A DNA stretch of 32,447 nt, from assembly GCA_902573115.1 (NCBI GenBank), contig CACGIM010000012.1, forward strand, positions 1-32,447, in the 5' to 3' direction. A model generated the notes under the pieces. That model made no database searches. It was given only the letters and a program-made list of their open reading frames with translations, and was not told the origin of the DNA. Shown here piece by piece: positions 19,943 to 26,709 of the stretch. This DNA comes from an uncultured Candidatus Poseidoniales archaeon. Its GTDB lineage: Archaea > Thermoplasmatota > Poseidoniia > Poseidoniales > Thalassarchaeaceae. Each line of letters begins with the position of its first letter. Position 1 is the first letter of the stretch. Position numbers and translations under genes: made by a program.

Positions 19943-20860
19943 ATGGCGAGAACCCAAGTTGATTTTACACCAACTAGGATTGACTATGGTGGTGAATTTC
20001 ATGTTATCTCAGGAACCCAGGGGGAGGTTTGCATAGTGGGGTCGAATGGATCCAGAATAGGGAGGTCCAGGGCCATACCATTCCCCGCCCCAGCGGTGGA
20101 TGGAGTTGTGCTGGGTAAAAGTTGGATTGGAGTTTGGCTTGATAGGGAATTTCAGACATCGTGCATGGCATCGCTACCTCTAGAAAAGAGGCTAGAAGAC
20201 GGCCCTAGCAGAGATAGCCTTAGATTATCCGTCGAAAAATCAAGAGGGATTAATCCTGCTAATTCAATATGGAGTAGGGAATTAGATTCAGAACCGATGA
20301 AGATTGGAAGTTCGGGCGAAAATGTGGTATTCGCAACATATTCCGGAATCTTCATGATTGACATTAACGCGGATTTGATTTGGGTATCTCCACTACCGAG
20401 TTGGCCCCCCATTTACAACCTTAGGCACTTCGATGCAGTTGCGAGCATCAACGAGTTCCCTTTGGGAATTGCAATTTGGTCTCAAGCGGGAGGAGTTTCC
20501 GTACTAGACCCCAGCAACGGGATTGAGCTACATAATTCCGTTATTAGCCTAAAACACAAGATCTCCAATGTCTACTTTTCAGAAGAAGGAGGTTGGCTAA
20601 TTATTTTGCATGGCAACTCGGTTGCAGAGTTGGCTGATTGGGGGGCTGATCCCAAGATTCACAAGACCTTGGGGCCGGTCATGGAAGCAAAATTTGTGGA
20701 TGGTAGGTGGTTGTGGACAGGTTGGAGGCATGATGGTGAATTAATGAATGGCGAAGTAAAATCTTACCCTCGTGAGGAGATTGGAGTAGGCATTCTTGAT
20801 GGATTTGTTCTGTTGAACAATGGTTGCTGGGACAATTGGGGGCAATCTAGTCTGACTTGA
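19943..20860 (+). CDS. Hypothetical beta-propeller-like protein
   Basis: About 305 residues from the ATG at 19943 ([19 protein letters not shown]). An upstream in-frame ATG at 19892 would add 17 residues, crowding the divergent dtdA start at 19873, so the shorter form is preferred. No family is recognised. Repeated short beta strands with aromatic ends ([97 protein letters not shown]) suggest a cytoplasmic WD40- or PQQ-like propeller. There is no signal peptide. Its 3' end overlaps the convergent rps27ae by 14 bases. Confidence 0.75.
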
Positions 20861-21017
20861 CTGTGTAGCCGCATTTTCCACATACCATTCGATCGCTATG
20901 AACTCCTAAAAATACGCCAGGACCACAAGTTGGGCACTCTATTCCCTTTCTAACTAGCTCACCGTTCTCAACGGAGTATTTCGAATGCTTCGAATTGGGG
21001 TTTGGCCCATCACCCAT
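20847..21017 (-). CDS. rps27ae: Ribosomal protein S27ae (eS31)
   Basis: A 56-residue zinc-binding protein of the small ribosomal subunit. The single zinc ribbon is clear: CPTC at 28-31 and CGKC at 46-49, with [17 protein letters not shown] matching the family, here without any ubiquitin fusion, as usual in Archaea. The ATG at 21015-21017 overlaps the S24e stop by one base (TGATG), showing translational coupling. Last gene of the rpo7 operon. The stop TAG lies at 20847-20849, inside the 3' end of the convergent gene. Confidence 0.95.
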
Positions 21018-21367
21018 CAGGCCTCACCCCCTTCGTCGTTTTCTTCCTGTGCCTCTTCCTCGACCTTGTCTCCCTGTTCTTTCGCAGGAGATTCTTCCCC
21101 TTTGTGACGCTCGATGACATATTCTGGCTCTATAGAAGCGGATTCTTGGGAACCATACACCAGGGCAATTCCAGATGTCCTTGACATTCCAAACCGAGTG
21201 TCTACATCCTTTACGAATACCAGTTTTCTATCCGATCCGGGCTCAGCCTTGGCTGCAGCATCAACCATCTGTGCCCTGGAGGGAGTAGGCTCGTTGGGGT
21301 GGTCCCATTGGAAGTTAAGTTCTACCCTGTTTAGCAGAGGATTCTCTTTTCTATCTATTATTTCCAT
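21017..21367 (-). CDS. rps24e: Ribosomal protein S24e (eS24)
   Basis: A 116-residue small-subunit protein. [20 protein letters not shown] and the later [30 protein letters not shown] (read in two parts) are typical of eS24. The last 28 residues form an acidic Glu-rich tail ([20 protein letters not shown]) not needed for the fold. I prefer ATG 21365-21367 over the in-frame GTG at 21373, because the AGGTAGGTG just upstream serves as ribosome site for the ATG and contains that GTG. It starts 8 bases after spt4. Confidence 0.94.
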
Positions 21368-21375
21368 AATCACAC

Positions 21376-21603
21376 CTACCTAATGTTAACTTTGAGCGCG
21401 TAGCTACCGGGTCTGGAAATCTGAAGCCTCTTTGCAACCTCGGATCTGTCCGGATGCATTACAACCACGAATCCCTGCCAATCGGTGGTAACCGGGGAGT
21501 TTGGGCAATGATTGCACTGAGGTGGATCTGACTTCTTCTCTGGGTCGGGCAGGATCAAATTACATTCGCCACAGGCAAAGGGTTGTCTTACCACCTCAGT
21601 CAT
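21376..21603 (-). CDS. spt4: Transcription elongation factor Spt4 (RpoE2)
   Basis: A 75-residue zinc protein that binds Spt5 (NusG) and raises RNA polymerase processivity. The zinc ribbon has FACGEC near residues 11-16 and CNHC near residues 30-33, and the fold ends in VVVMHPDRSEVAKRLQISRPGSYALKV, typical of Spt4. ATG 21601-21603 overlaps the rpo7 stop by 8 bases; a TTG three codons upstream (21612) is an alternative start. Second gene of the operon. Confidence 0.93.
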   Translation of the reverse strand: MTEVVRQPFACGECNLILPDPEKKSDPPQCNHCPNSPVTTDWQGFVVVMHPDRSEVAKRLQISRPGSYALKVNIR

Positions 21604-22144
21604 CCTCCCCAATCCAATCGAAGGAACCTAATCCATCCATCTTGCAGTTCAGCCCGATCTTACTGGACCTAGGATCGTTGTGGTTTATGGACTTAGAAAC
21701 TATCCTCGACCGTACAAATGATCCCTCCTCAAGATTTCTACCACTCTGAGACCCTTCGATCCTCTTAACTCCGAGATTTACTTGAATGGGCTCGTCCAGT
21801 ATCTGAGATTTGTGAAGTAGGGCCTCCATGGGACCTATCCTGACGAAAGCCCCGTATTCCGAGACTTCGGATACAGCCCCATCAACAACTTCGTTATTGT
21901 CCATGGAGAAAACTAGTGCCTTGAATCTGACGTTTTGATAAATGGCACCATCGCCATGGATTATCTTACCCCTACCTACAGCTTCGTGATCAAAGGTAAG
22001 TAGTGTAAAGTTCTCGTTTTCGTCAAATCTACATTCGAAGGCGTCATGTGCGAGTTCATCTATGTGGTCCTCTAGCCTTCTACCCCTTCTGATGTACTCG
22101 GCGGGTATTCTAATAGTGTCCTCTCTTGTTTCAAGGGTGTACAT
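21596..22144 (-). CDS. rpo7: RNA polymerase subunit Rpo7 (RpoE1)
   Basis: This 182-residue protein forms the RNA polymerase stalk with Rpo4, helping open-complex formation and contacting nascent RNA. The N-terminal RNP-like domain begins MYTLETREDTIRIP. The S1/OB domain occupies about residues 80-180 (VVDGAVSEVSEYGAFVRIGPMEALLHKSQI, then KIGLNCKMDGLGSFDWI). A GGAGG ribosome site (22152-22156) stands 7 bases before the ATG. First gene of rpo7-spt4-rps24e-rps27ae, a standard euryarchaeal order, here without the DUF359 kinase gene often found between spt4 and rps24e. Confidence 0.96.
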   Translation of the reverse strand: MYTLETREDTIRIPAEYIRRGRRLEDHIDELAHDAFECRFDENENFTLLTFDHEAVGRGKIIHGDGAIYQNVRFKALVFSMDNNEVVDGAVSEVSEYGAFVRIGPMEALLHKSQILDEPIQVNLGVKRIEGSQSGRNLEEGSFVRSRIVSKSINHNDPRSSKIGLNCKMDGLGSFDWIGEDD

Positions 22145-22150
22145 CCTTTT

Positions 22151-22240
22151 TCCTCCTGTGCGGACCTATCCGAAGCCGGACGTTAGGGGGGAGTCGCCTC
22201 CCGTCCCTCATCGGCCAAGCCTCTGGAGGAGAGGTCCGTT
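22151..22240 (-). ncRNA. Structured GC-rich 5' leader of the rpo7 operon (candidate cis-regulatory RNA)
   Basis: On the minus strand the leader holds an outer stem CGGACCT (22232-22238)/AGGTCCG (22161-22167). Inside are GGACG (22202-22206)/CGTCC (22178-22182) and a GNRA-capped hairpin GGGAG-GCGA-CTCCC (22189-22202), sharing one G. A second hairpin CCTCT-CCTCC-AGAGG (22220-22234) competes with the outer stem. Its loop region contains TCCTCC (22225-22230), fully complementary to the GGAGGA ribosome site at 22151-22156. The TATA-like CTTATA (22265-22270) predicts a start near 22240, right at the outer stem. All pairings were read by eye; regulation is inference. Confidence 0.5.
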
Positions 22241-22262
22241 CGACTCGGCGACCGACCCCTCC

Positions 22263-22270
22263 TGTATAAG
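22263..22270. promoter_or_regulatory. TATA-like box between rpo7 and the giant surface gene
   Basis: TGTATAAG on the plus strand reads CTTATACA on the minus strand, a usable TATA box both ways. On the minus strand it places the rpo7 start near 22240. On the plus strand it would give a start near 22294 and a leader of about 90 bases for the giant gene at 22384. Direction for the plus gene is uncertain. Confidence 0.4.
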
Positions 22271-22312: not shown

Positions 22313-22329
22313 TCAGACCGTAGGTCTGA
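22313..22329. promoter_or_regulatory. Perfect palindrome upstream of the second giant gene
   Basis: TCAGACC-GTA-GGTCTGA, 7-base arms with a 3-base centre, 55 bases before the preferred ATG at 22384. TGAGC/GCTCA (about 22287-22291 and 22311-22315) adds a competing outer stem. It could be an operator or an mRNA hairpin. Together with the rpo7 leader it accounts for most of the 239-base gap 22145-22383. Confidence 0.4.
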
Positions 22330-22383
22330 ATGAGGGTTTCGTGCGAATGTTCAAGTGGGCTAGGAATCTCATATTCTATTCTG

Positions 22384-25300
22384 ATGGTAGAGGCAGCTTT
22401 GGGAAGAGGTCTTTTCCGCAAGGTGAAAAGTTTGGTCGCTATTGCGATGTTGATGTCAATGCCCCTAGTGGGAATTTTGAATATTGATGATCTGGAAAAG
22501 GGTTTTCAATCACTTCAAAATAGTGAAATGTCCTCACAGGGAGAATCTTCAGATATTTGGGTCGATGGTGGTCAGCCGTGGCCGCAGTTTGGAAGAACAG
22601 CCTCGAGAATCGCAGAGCCCCCTGCGCATGGACCGGATGGCGGAGCTGGATTTGATGAGCCTCAAAACTCGAGCTCTTACATGTCGATAGTCAAACCATC
22701 TTTGAACTGGGTGTATGGCTCTTATTCAATTGGGACTGACTCTTTAGCAACTCCAATCGCCGATTTGAGCGGCTCGATAGAAGTTGGCCCCGGTGCACAA
22801 GAAAGGTGCGGAGGCAGTTCTTTGTTCTCTGTTCTAGTGCAAACTCAAGATGTATCGGGGTCGGATCACAGCATGCTAAGATTGATCGAAGGGGAGGATT
22901 CTGAACTAGCTTGGCAAGTCGACTTAGGAGCTACAGAGAAGGTTAAAGCTGCACCGGTAATTATCGACATAGATCAAGATGGTAAAACAGAAATCGTAGT
23001 AGCATATGATGCAGGTGGTTCCCTCAATGTTGATGTTTGGTCTCCAAGACTAACTTGTTCGGTTACTGGTTGGTCATACAGTGGCCATTCGGATGAGAAA
23101 CTCTGGAATTGGGTTGATGAGAGCTTGATGATAAGTAGTGATGAGGGACCATACACGAGCGGCATTTTTGGAGGACATAAACCGACAACACAGCCATTAC
23201 TTGCGGACATTGACCTTGATGGGGATGCCGAATTAGTAATTTCTGTTCTTGACGAGATTTCAGAGAATCCAGTTGTACTGGCTTTGCCCCTACAGACAAA
23301 TGGTACGCCAGATGAAATTTGGCAAGTGACTCTCAATAAGGGGAGTCATCCTTCTGATCCTGCGTTTGCACAAGCAGATGAGAATACTGGATACGTGGTT
23401 TTGACGACCATCGAGGCTAACAATGGCGCGATGTGGGCGTGGAAAATTGACTCTTCTTCTGGAAGCTCTGTGTGGCAGGGCGGCCTGTCATTGAACAATC
23501 TAGATGGAGACACAAACGCACCACACATTAGGCTTCCAGGCCCAGTTATAGCAAACCTTGACTCAGACTCGGACCCGGAAATAATTATCACAATACCTAC
23601 TGATGCAGATGGGTCAAACGCTGTTGATGGAGCGGAGTTCAGAGGAATTGAGTTATCTGATGGATCAGAGATTTGGGATTTTGAGGCATCCAATGGCTTC
23701 GCTGATGCCCCTCCTGTCGCAATCGACACTGATGGGGATGGGGAGCATGATCGGGTTTGTTGGGTCACTTGGTGGCAAACCACGACCGATAGACATGGGG
23801 CATCGGGTTGCCATGACGTAGGGGGCTCTGTTCCTAACCAGGAGTGGGTGCAAGATCTAGAACAAAGCAGCGGCAACCCAAATGATGAGATCGCGGTCTC
23901 CGCTCCAACTTGGATGGATATAGACTCCGAGGATGAGCCAGAGCTCCTAGTTGCTTACGGGAGGTCTCTTTGGGCCTTTGATGGATCATCTGGATCACCG
24001 GCCGGAGTGAATTCTGAATGGTCAGATGATTTCGAACTAGACCATAGGGTCTGGTCATCCCCTTCATTGGCCGACATAGATGGAGACGCAACTTTGGACA
24101 TTGTAATTGGAAGCATGGCATTATCAATGGCTATGGCTGATGTCAGGCCTTTAACCGATAACAGGGGAATAGAGTTCAACCCTAGTTCACCCGATCCGGG
24201 GGAACAAGTCACAGTTACTGCATATCTGGAGAATGCTGGTACTTCTCGCACAAATGAGATACTGGATGTCGAGCTATTTGCGAACGGCGAAAAAATCGGA
24301 GGGACTGGGATTTCCTCGCTGGATCCGGTTGAGCCAAGTGGATCGGGATCATTCTCGTCATTCAGCGTCGAGTGGAGCGGAGGCCTTGGTGATCATGAGT
24401 TTGAGCTAAGACTCGATCCGTACAGGAACATATCCCAAACCAGATACGATAATGATTATCAGACTCATAGATTGTCTATAGTACCACCTTACAATGCATC
24501 ATTTGAGATTCCCACAGAACCGTTGAGAATAGACCCGGGAGGTAGTGACTATGCCTCAATTGGAATCCGTTCAACAGGGAGGCTAGCAGGATCTTGGACC
24601 CTCGGTGTCGACGACTCATACCTTCCTGAAGGATGGACTTGGGGCGATCAGACTCCAGGTGGAATTTCAAGTGTACAGATAGGCCCAGGAGAACTTTGGT
24701 CTCCCGTTTTAAGGGTTTATGCACCATCCAATGCTCTTGGTTCGGATACGGGCTATCTTGGTTTGACCCTTACCCATGATGGTGGCGAGTCACAGGTCTC
24801 AGCTAACCTGCCAATAGAAGCCAATCGGACTCGAGGGCTTTCGATTAGGGGGCCAGACGGAACCTCACAGAGTACTGGTTATGGGCTAATTTCAGGAGAA
24901 GCAATGGCTTGGTTATTGATTGAAAATGTGGGCAATGCAGCGGAGGAGCAGATAGCAGTTTCATGGGACAGTACGGAATGGGGGTCTGATCTCAGGATAT
25001 TTGATTCAGAAGGAGAGGAGGTTCCTGCACTCTCTCTTGGACCTGGAGAAGAAAAAGAGGTGACTGCAAGAATACAGGTGCCTTCTGGAGCCAACCTAGG
25101 TGAGAATGTTAGTACCCCACTTAGCATGTGTGTGGGAATGGGCGATGAGCAGGAATGTAGCGATGTTGAGCTAAAATTCGTAGCCTCCGGTTCAGTGGTT
25201 CAACCAAGCCACATTAGATCGGTACCAGCCGATGGACTAACTTGGAGTATACACGTAGACCTACCAGTAGATTCTGGAATATTGAATTGGTCATTGACGG

Positions 25301-26709
25301 AATCTGGGATGATGATGCAGGGTTGGTCATGGGAAGGAACTGACCAAGTGTCGGTTTTGGGAGATGTTGTTTCCATATCTGGATCGCCCGGGTCGAGAGT
25401 TAGCGGAAATCTAAACCTAAACCTCCCAATGGACACTCGCCCAGCCTTCCATTTATTTGAGGATGGATCGGATTCAGAATCTTTCTTCCCACTTTCAATG
25501 TCATTGGAAGTAATGCAGATACATAGAGCAGCGCTAGAGATTAATTCACCGACAACACAGCCATACATAGTCAACGTAGATGAAGAAAGTCTCGTGGTGC
25601 TTAGACTAGAGAATCCGGGCAACGGAGATGACTCATATTCACTTTCTCACGAGGTAATGACAGATGAGAATATAACATCTGATCTGGGAATAGAAGTGCA
25701 TTTTTCGAGCAATCCAGTTATCCTTGGTGCTGGCAGCCTGAGAACCATCCCTTTGGGAGTCACCATTCCCGAGGAAACTCCTGCTAGGGTGCCAATACGA
25801 GTATTATTCACAATGACCTCTGAGGGTAATAGAAGTGTTAGGGACCTTGTGGAAGTGATTTTCGAGGTAAGGCAGGATCATAGATGGCAAATAGACTCAA
25901 GATCTGGGGACAGGGAAATTAACGGTTCTACATATCTGGTCGAACCCGGGGGTTCCGTTGAATTCGTAGTCAATGCAACCAATTTGGGAAACCTGATGGA
26001 CGACATCATGCTTAACGTCGAAGTAGAGGTGACCCTAGAAGGGTCTGATGACTCACAGGAATGGGTAGCAAACGGTAGTACGGCAGAGGGTATTGGCGTA
26101 AACGACTCTGTTTTATTACCGATTTCTGCTTTCACCCCTCAAGACGCATGGAATGGGTCCAGAATGACTGTGATCGTAACTGCAATGGCTAGAGATACGC
26201 ATGTTGAGGAGTTTTCCTTCGATTTGGAGATTACGCACGTGCCGGGATGGGGAGTATCATCTTCCATGGCAGATTTGGAGATTGAACCGGAGGGATCCGA
26301 AGTTTCCCTTGAGATTTTACAGAGGGGCAATTCCCCAACCATACCATATGTTTCGGTATACGTGACCGGGCAAAAGGGGTGGGAGATAAATCAGCCCAAT
26401 CAGCTCGAGGAAGTCCAACCCGGCGAGTCTCTGTCACTAAATCTGAATATTACTCCCCCTGAAACGGCGAAGCATGGTCTGTCTGTGGAGCTACACGTGA
26501 GAGTAAGGGAAGGGGACTCATCTGGATTGACGGAAATCACCCTGCCACTTCGAGTCTCTATTGTTCAAGATTTCACAATGTTAGGAATGGGTCCTTGGGT
26601 GATATCGGAATACGGAGGATTTCCAAATGTTTTACTAGAAAACACTGGTAATGCTCCAAACACGATTATCCTGCAGGTCGTAGGCCTCCCCCCCCGGATG
26701 GGGAGTTAA
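22384..26709 (+). CDS. Giant surface protein with FG-GAP propeller, N-terminal part (frame broken at C8 tract)
   Basis: Start at ATG 22384, chosen because GRGLFRKVK then SLVAIAMLMSMPLVGIL makes a proper signal peptide; an earlier ATG (22330) adds 18 atypical residues. A PQQ-like segment (WPQFGRTASRIAEP, about 67-80) precedes at least six FG-GAP/VCBS-type repeats (about 190-580: IDIDQDGKTEIVVAY, ADIDLDGDAELVIS, ANLDSDSDPEIIIT, IDTDGDGEHDRVCW, MDIDSEDEPELLVAY, ADIDGDATLDIVIG), likely a calcium-binding beta propeller as in integrin alpha chains. A CARDB domain (about 594-702) and a series of Ig-like/NEW3-type domains follow (LPEGWTW, LPPR...). This frame ends at TAA 26707-26709, right after the eight-C run; the next frame continues the same protein. 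Confidence 0.88.
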   Translation: MVEAALGRGLFRKVKSLVAIAMLMSMPLVGILNIDDLEKGFQSLQNSEMSSQGESSDIWVDGGQPWPQFGRTASRIAEPPAHGPDGGAGFDEPQNSSSYMSIVKPSLNWVYGSYSIGTDSLATPIADLSGSIEVGPGAQERCGGSSLFSVLVQTQDVSGSDHSMLRLIEGEDSELAWQVDLGATEKVKAAPVIIDIDQDGKTEIVVAYDAGGSLNVDVWSPRLTCSVTGWSYSGHSDEKLWNWVDESLMISSDEGPYTSGIFGGHKPTTQPLLADIDLDGDAELVISVLDEISENPVVLALPLQTNGTPDEIWQVTLNKGSHPSDPAFAQADENTGYVVLTTIEANNGAMWAWKIDSSSGSSVWQGGLSLNNLDGDTNAPHIRLPGPVIANLDSDSDPEIIITIPTDADGSNAVDGAEFRGIELSDGSEIWDFEASNGFADAPPVAIDTDGDGEHDRVCWVTWWQTTTDRHGASGCHDVGGSVPNQEWVQDLEQSSGNPNDEIAVSAPTWMDIDSEDEPELLVAYGRSLWAFDGSSGSPAGVNSEWSDDFELDHRVWSSPSLADIDGDATLDIVIGSMALSMAMADVRPLTDNRGIEFNPSSPDPGEQVTVTAYLENAGTSRTNEILDVELFANGEKIGGTGISSLDPVEPSGSGSFSSFSVEWSGGLGDHEFELRLDPYRNISQTRYDNDYQTHRLSIVPPYNASFEIPTEPLRIDPGGSDYASIGIRSTGRLAGSWTLGVDDSYLPEGWTWGDQTPGGISSVQIGPGELWSPVLRVYAPSNALGSDTGYLGLTLTHDGGESQVSANLPIEANRTRGLSIRGPDGTSQSTGYGLISGEAMAWLLIENVGNAAEEQIAVSWDSTEWGSDLRIFDSEGEEVPALSLGPGEEKEVTARIQVPSGANLGENVSTPLSMCVGMGDEQECSDVELKFVASGSVVQPSHIRSVPADGLTWSIHVDLPVDSGILNWSLTESGMMMQGWSWEGTDQVSVLGDVVSISGSPGSRVSGNLNLNLPMDTRPAFHLFEDGSDSESFFPLSMSLEVMQIHRAALEINSPTTQPYIVNVDEESLVVLRLENPGNGDDSYSLSHEVMTDENITSDLGIEVHFSSNPVILGAGSLRTIPLGVTIPEETPARVPIRVLFTMTSEGNRSVRDLVEVIFEVRQDHRWQIDSRSGDREINGSTYLVEPGGSVEFVVNATNLGNLMDDIMLNVEVEVTLEGSDDSQEWVANGSTAEGIGVNDSVLLPISAFTPQDAWNGSRMTVIVTAMARDTHVEEFSFDLEITHVPGWGVSSSMADLEIEPEGSEVSLEILQRGNSPTIPYVSVYVTGQKGWEINQPNQLEEVQPGESLSLNLNITPPETAKHGLSVELHVRVREGDSSGLTEITLPLRVSIVQDFTMLGMGPWVISEYGGFPNVLLENTGNAPNTIILQVVGLPPRMGS
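26688..26695 (+). other. Eight-C homopolymer at the frameshift
   Basis: CCCCCCCC at 26688-26695. With eight C the frame reads LPPRMGS and stops. With seven C it reads LPPGWGVKGDSQAVLGVG and runs on without a stop into the downstream frame to 28024. LP.GW.V is a frequent strand in such Ig-like domains, so seven C is the ancestral or functional length. Sequencing error, slippage-based phase variation or true mutation are all possible. Confidence 0.85.

Follow-up and report, generated by a model that had tools for sequence, protein, structure and literature searches.

Does the DNA in front of rpo7 in Poseidoniales encode a regulatory RNA leader, and if so, what would bind it? Poseidoniales, or Marine Group II, are archaea abundant in the surface ocean. 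Our starting point is one window, i.e. the whole 32,447-nucleotide stretch analysed here, from an incomplete assembly (63%), where the initial annotation placed a structured leader before an operon rpo7-spt4-rps24e-rps27ae. The operon itself is borne out: Pfam assigns an S1-domain protein at the position of rpo7, then Spt4, S24e and S27ae (Table 1). The leader gap is bounded by the start of rpo7 on the minus strand and by a divergent surface-protein ORF, listed from 22330 on the plus strand. Read on the minus strand, it contains in order a TATA box, a hairpin of 83 nt, the GGAGG of the ribosome binding site and the ATG of rpo7 at 22144. The TATA-like box is indeed positioned for a start at the outer stem, as first proposed: transcription is predicted to begin about 25-30 nt past the box, at 22244-22239, just before P1. 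The 3' end of 16S rRNA in the window genome, GGATCACCTCCT, includes CCTCC.

Table 1. Features of the rpo7 locus in the window; stem strands are written as RNA.
Feature	Position	Strand	Evidence or pairing
rpo7 (RNA polymerase stalk subunit, S1 domain)	21596..22144	minus	Pfam S1, E 2.9e-9
spt4	21376..21612	minus	Pfam Spt4, E 1.5e-12; TTG at 21612 is the start in the ORF list
rps24e	21017..21373	minus	Pfam Ribosomal_S24e, E 2.1e-21
rps27ae	20847..21017	minus	Pfam Ribosomal_S27, E 4.2e-16
TATA box TTATAC	22269-22264	minus	sequence
rpo7 ribosome binding site GGAGG	22156-22152	minus	sequence; 4 nt 3' of P1 3' strand
Leader element, one long imperfect hairpin	22157..22239	minus	full R1 match, 81.1 bits, E 1.5e-17; fold -41.5 kcal/mol
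P1 5' strand CGGACCU	22238-22232	minus	pairs with AGGUCCG 22167-22161
P1 3' strand AGGUCCG	22167-22161	minus	pairs with CGGACCU 22238-22232
P2 5' strand UCC	22230-22228	minus	pairs with GGA 22171-22169
P2 3' strand GGA	22171-22169	minus	fold
5' bulge UCCA	22227-22224	minus	directly after P2 5' strand
P3 5' strand GAGGCU	22223-22218	minus	pairs with GGCUUC 22177-22172
P3 3' strand GGCUUC	22177-22172	minus	fold
P4 3' side (in ACGUCC)	22183-22178	minus	pairs with GG and CG of GGCCG 22216-22212
P5 apical stem AGGG..GGGAG-GCGA-CUCCC-CCCU	22208-22185	minus	GNRA loop in the window's genus; fold
Conserved core GAGGCNNNGCCGRUGARGGACGG	22223-22201	minus	holds P4 5' strand and unpaired AUG(A)

The neighbourhood of the gap has features of its own. 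The plus-strand ORF (22330-26709) encodes a large surface protein with FG-GAP, CARDB and NPCBM-associated domains; its listed start abuts a palindrome, and a more typical signal peptide (MVEAALGRGLFRKVKSLVAIAMLMSMPLVG) begins at a later ATG. The palindrome, CAGACC-TAC-GGTCTG in the minus-strand reading (22314-22328), lies between the divergent promoters of rpo7 and the surface-protein gene. It is retained next to most leaders of the window's genus and in several other genera of its family, nearly always as one site per genome, and is possibly an operator or a 5' hairpin of the plus-strand gene. In addition, the S24e protein of the window genome carries an acidic C-terminal tail (21017-21120).

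An 88-nt leader from the window folds to -41.5 kcal/mol, with z -2.5 against dinucleotide shuffles. The folding signal is weak when 30-60 nt of extra flank are included (z -1.5), and there is none on the plus strand of the same region (z +0.3). Among the arms quoted in the initial annotation, CGGACCT/AGGTCCG, GGGAG-GCGA-CTCCC (22202-22189) and CCTCT-CCTCC-AGAGG are all present on the minus strand. Both halves of a further stem, GGACG (22207-22203) and CGTCC (22183-22179), are found as well and lie within the hairpin, but they are not paired in the minimum-energy fold of the window sequence.

We collected the rpo7 upstream regions of 130 Poseidoniales genomes from both families of the order and folded 123 distinct leaders, 78 from f1, the window's own family, and 45 from f2, the other one; the data suggest that f1 is Thalassarchaeaceae and f2 Poseidoniaceae. 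All 130 leaders contain the core or variants of it, with a pyrimidine-rich CUCUCC segment on its 5' side. When as many as 2 mismatches are tolerated, the core pattern is found in 43 of 60 Poseidoniales genomes, while a scan for the exact core through 84,980 species returns 105 stretches, of which, among the 80 listed, all but a few are Poseidoniales records. A covariance model, R1, was built from 21 sequences of f1 only, the window sequence among them. It matches 117 of 293 Poseidoniales genomes, a lower bound for carriers of the element because it misses most f2 leaders. Wherever they could be located, the match sites agree with the positions upstream of rpo7, and there is one per genome with a single exception, G147. 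There, two leader copies lie on an N-gapped contig (L176, G147:C66:7013-7465) with interrupted rpo7 starts around the N runs, which is probably an assembly merge of two strains. We looked for a second copy elsewhere in the genome, and this gapped assembly is the sole case with two matches.

Beyond the order, R1 matches only G296 and G331, each with E of about 0.003 per genome, the chance level for some 100 genomes; in G331, the match is on a different contig from that of rpo7. The element is not found in marine group III or in the other Thermoplasmatota examined. In 124 Poseidoniales leaders, a TATA-like box lies 112-146 nt (median 130) upstream of the rpo7 ATG, and the core UGA follows the box by 58-64 nt (10th-90th percentile); marine group III has its TATA box about 30 nt from the start codon. 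All clades that we compared keep the four genes in this order behind the leader, one locus (L012) being cut by a contig end. In Poseidoniales, spt4 and rps24e are adjacent (21017-21376 in the window), whereas in most of the Thermoplasmatota outgroups that allow the comparison the two starts lie about 700 bp apart, room for one more gene, possibly the DUF359 dephospho-CoA kinase known in other archaea. From the absence of the element and the short leader in marine group III, together with the spacing in the outgroups, the leader was probably gained in the ancestor of Poseidoniales.

The fold is shared as well. One long interrupted hairpin emerges both from single-sequence folds and from folds of several genus groups, in the order P1, P2, 5' bulge, P3 with its GAGG (nearly invariant across the order in our alignments), P4, the conserved GRUGA and P5. 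In f1, the GAUGA segment is bulged in most genera. Unconstrained folds of f2 leaders pair GGUGAAG with CUUCAYC, at a position that matches the GAUGA of f1, and 41 of the 45 add a small 5' hairpin with a cUNCGg tetraloop (UUCG or UACG). Mean z values are -2.96 for the 78 distinct f1 leaders and -2.89 for the 45 of f2, against -0.55 and -0.21, respectively, in control DNA taken farther upstream.

The structural alignment used for covariation covers f1. When 64 distinct f1 sequences are aligned to R1, 83.7% of the cells pair and 15 of the 27 pairs show two-sided changes. In total, 100 cells are changed on both sides, compared with 31 +/- 5 after shuffling (none of 500 shuffles reaches this number) and at most 32 with slid partners. 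Two-sided changes occur in all 7 P1 pairs of the model and are most numerous in the P4 columns. As this alignment was fitted to the structure, we added two further tests of covariation. Under an R-scape-like null that takes the tree into account, applied to the same alignment, the top three of 3160 column pairs are structure pairs, though no single pair is significant when all pairs are counted (lowest E about 4, or 0.04 within the structure). The second test needs no alignment: the variable linker shows better pairing with the 3' arm of the same leader than with 3' arms taken from others, at a level that 0 of 5000 permutations reach in f1 (p < 1/5000) and 119 of 5000 in f2 (p 0.024). The outer stem thus covaries among relatives, and the claim of a conserved base-paired leader before rpo7-spt4-rps24e-rps27ae holds up.

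We therefore favour, with a probability of about 0.6, a Poseidoniales-specific structured 5' leader that would bind a protein, most likely one encoded by the operon itself, and so block ribosome entry. The element forms the 5' leader of an operon that includes ribosomal-protein genes, and its structure is kept by compensatory change, as is characteristic of r-leaders.

The two arms of the hairpin evolve differently. Of the 30 invariant columns of alignment A1, 29 belong to the 5' arm, and alignment A4 shows likewise in f2; the 3' arm drifts with G-U changes while the 5' arm stays nearly invariant. This conservation exceeds what pairing requires. It could be explained by direct protein contacts with the 5' strand or by a second role at the level of DNA. 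Taken further, the latter would make the 5' arm an operator or an initial-transcribed sequence, with the hairpin secondary. Near-invariance of a promoter-proximal arm at a fixed distance agrees with such a role; however, the linker changes in length by one nucleotide at a time (3-6 nt) and shows covariation with the 3' arm, P1 and P4 undergo two-sided changes, and the cUNCGg hairpin is kept in f2 as expected for RNA. We consider a purely DNA- or transcription-level element unlikely.

A further idea is an upstream ORF conserved for its peptide. Many f2 leaders have an ATG close to the predicted start; f2 leaders can be read as MT(T/S)VxFSPEAxPVKDG, and SP-E-A-xP-[MV]-[RK]-DG is readable in parts of both families. 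Yet the frame is broken by linkers of 3, 4, 5 and 6 nt and by GAC-to-GAGG distances of 20-23 nt, and in-frame stops interrupt 11 of 78 f1 and 5 of 45 f2 leaders, so that an upstream ORF is hardly credible.

A separate noncoding RNA, for instance an H/ACA or other guide RNA that lies before rpo7 by chance, would likewise be a single-copy, compactly folded element with its own TATA box. The initial annotation had raised this alternative from an ACA after the outer stem. The likeness to H/ACA guide RNAs is real in the window: a long hairpin, internal loops and the ACA. Unlike them, however, the leader has no K-turn and is fixed to one mRNA, its ribosome site follows directly, and in Poseidoniales R1 never matches away from rpo7. 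The ACA is not conserved: no ANA box is maintained after the stem, which continues with CACAGG in the window and with CAUAGG, CGUUGG, UUAAAU and others in relatives. Rfam 15 yields no match near the leader at the gathering threshold, nor up to E 10; novelty is judged here against Rfam, which does not include Ocean-VI, a marine motif from earlier work (PMC2864571). The guide-RNA alternative is thereby abandoned, and an independent noncoding RNA of any kind is highly improbable.

How, then, might the leader act on the ribosome site? The proposal made from the window was a two-state switch, in which the CCTCT hairpin replaces the outer stem and its TCCTCC loop pairs with the GGAGGA ribosome site of rpo7. 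The required sequences are there: TCCTCC, contained in the P2 5' strand and bulge (22230-22224), is fully complementary to GGAGGA, and the CCTCT hairpin and the outer stem do share bases. As a competing state, though, this hairpin has a pair probability of 4e-6 in the window and costs 9 kcal/mol. Across all 123 leaders, the 3' arm is the partner of GAGG with probability 0.76 in both families, versus 0.006 (f1) and 0.06 (f2) for the CCTCT arm, and the CCTCT hairpin is preferred by no f1 leader and by only 3 of f2. It shows no excess of covariation, and loop and ribosome site do not covary; the loop is no more complementary to its own ribosome site than to those of others (p 0.78 and 0.28). A conserved exclusive hairpin with conserved pairing between loop and site is thus not what we find, and a switch of this kind is very unlikely. 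Some occlusion switch is nevertheless possible in f2: for many of its leaders, the predictions pair a 5' element, ACUUC, with the GAGGU of the ribosome site (mean 0.67), to the exclusion of the local UUCG hairpin. Separately, several f2 leaders (L103, L104, L107 and L119) have a hairpin 3' strand that could pair with the rpo7 ribosome site as well; in L107, for example, UCAUCACC is complementary to GGUGAUGA, and core and ribosome site could compete for this strand.

Another way to act would be on the polymerase: the nascent hairpin could be sensed at the RNA exit by the Rpo4/7 or Spt4/5 machinery, leading to attenuation or pausing. Both the stalk subunit Rpo7 and Spt4 are encoded in the operon, and a hairpin formed from about +1 would emerge beside the stalk. 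Still, no terminator-like U run follows the hairpin, and its position abutting the ribosome site is a better fit to translational control, which makes attenuation distinctly unlikely. A related suggestion, that Rpo7 (with Rpo4) or Spt4/5 binds the nascent leader at the exit channel and so sets the amounts of the stalk and of two ribosomal proteins together, is in our estimation unlikely. If true, such sensing would couple archaeal transcription and ribosome supply through feedback.

We now propose a mechanism for the protein-binding leader. Transcription would start just upstream of P1, and the first ~85 nt would fold into the long interrupted hairpin, ending in the window about 4 nt before the Shine-Dalgarno sequence. 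When in excess, an operon protein would bind the conserved 5' arm and the internal loops; once bound, it would block ribosome entry and repress translation. In the predicted f1 fold, the ribosome site is roughly half open, and therefore repression needs a bound factor. The leader probably lets the cell adjust the amounts of the operon proteins in this way.

Among the candidate ligands, we would rank S24e before S27ae. By analogy, these two ribosomal proteins are the default, and Rpo7 and Spt4 are less likely. Gene content does not choose among them, because the four genes never separate in the clades examined; identification of the ligand through loss of an operon gene fails on this same unbroken operon. 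Likeness of an r-leader to the rRNA site of its ligand is common, although not required. Comparison of the leader with 23S and 16S rRNA, by sequence and by covariance model, gives no match above chance: R1 searched against both with filters off returns nothing significant, and, with the exception of one weak match, alignments to 16S do not exceed chance. One segment, GCCGATGARGGNCGNGA, resembles the 5' part of 23S rRNA, but its score equals that of shuffled leaders. A well-defined RNA of 85 nt and four possible ligands make autoregulation amenable to in vitro tests, with no need for a cultured host.

To our knowledge, archaea have few documented cis-acting structured leaders. The one described here is fixed throughout an order that is abundant in the surface ocean and absent from the sister lineages examined, and it precedes an operon that joins components of RNA polymerase and the ribosome.

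One known archaeal system involves L7Ae and the K-turn, a 3-nt bulge flanked by tandem sheared G-A pairs. We inspected the leader for such a motif and rejected it: its 5' strand reads GCC-GAUGA-GGG and its 3' strand CC(C/U)-GGC, and most f1 leaders lack an unpaired G-A across from the bulge. L7Ae reportedly targets the leader of the mRNA that encodes it; both systems are archaeal 5' leaders that presumably repress the translation of a ribosomal-protein gene when bound by a protein, but the L7Ae leader has a K-turn upstream of the L7Ae gene, whereas the bulge of the rpo7 leader has no sheared G-A partner (PMC5539422, PMC6298567). L7Ae is, moreover, absent from the rpo7 operon.

The operon as such is familiar: the archaeal S24e-S27ae-rpoE1 cluster comprises rpoE1 (rpo7), rpoE2 (spt4), S24e and S27ae (PMC10833476). 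Most comparable outgroups have this cluster with the wider spt4-S24e spacing and no leader, Poseidoniales with the two genes adjacent and the leader in front.

The closest parallels are the archaeal r-leaders of S15 in Halobacteria and Methanomicrobia, eL15 in Euryarchaeota and L4 in Archaeoglobi, each interpreted as the binding site of a protein from the operon that it precedes (Eckert and Weinberg 2020, PMC7247131). That study describes no leader for rpo7, spt4, S24e or S27ae, nor any in Poseidoniales. In contrast to its leaders, the rpo7 leader is without detected rRNA mimicry and the first gene behind it encodes an RNA polymerase subunit. Like them, it is a structured, covarying 5' leader of an archaeal ribosomal-protein operon, each confined to one lineage.
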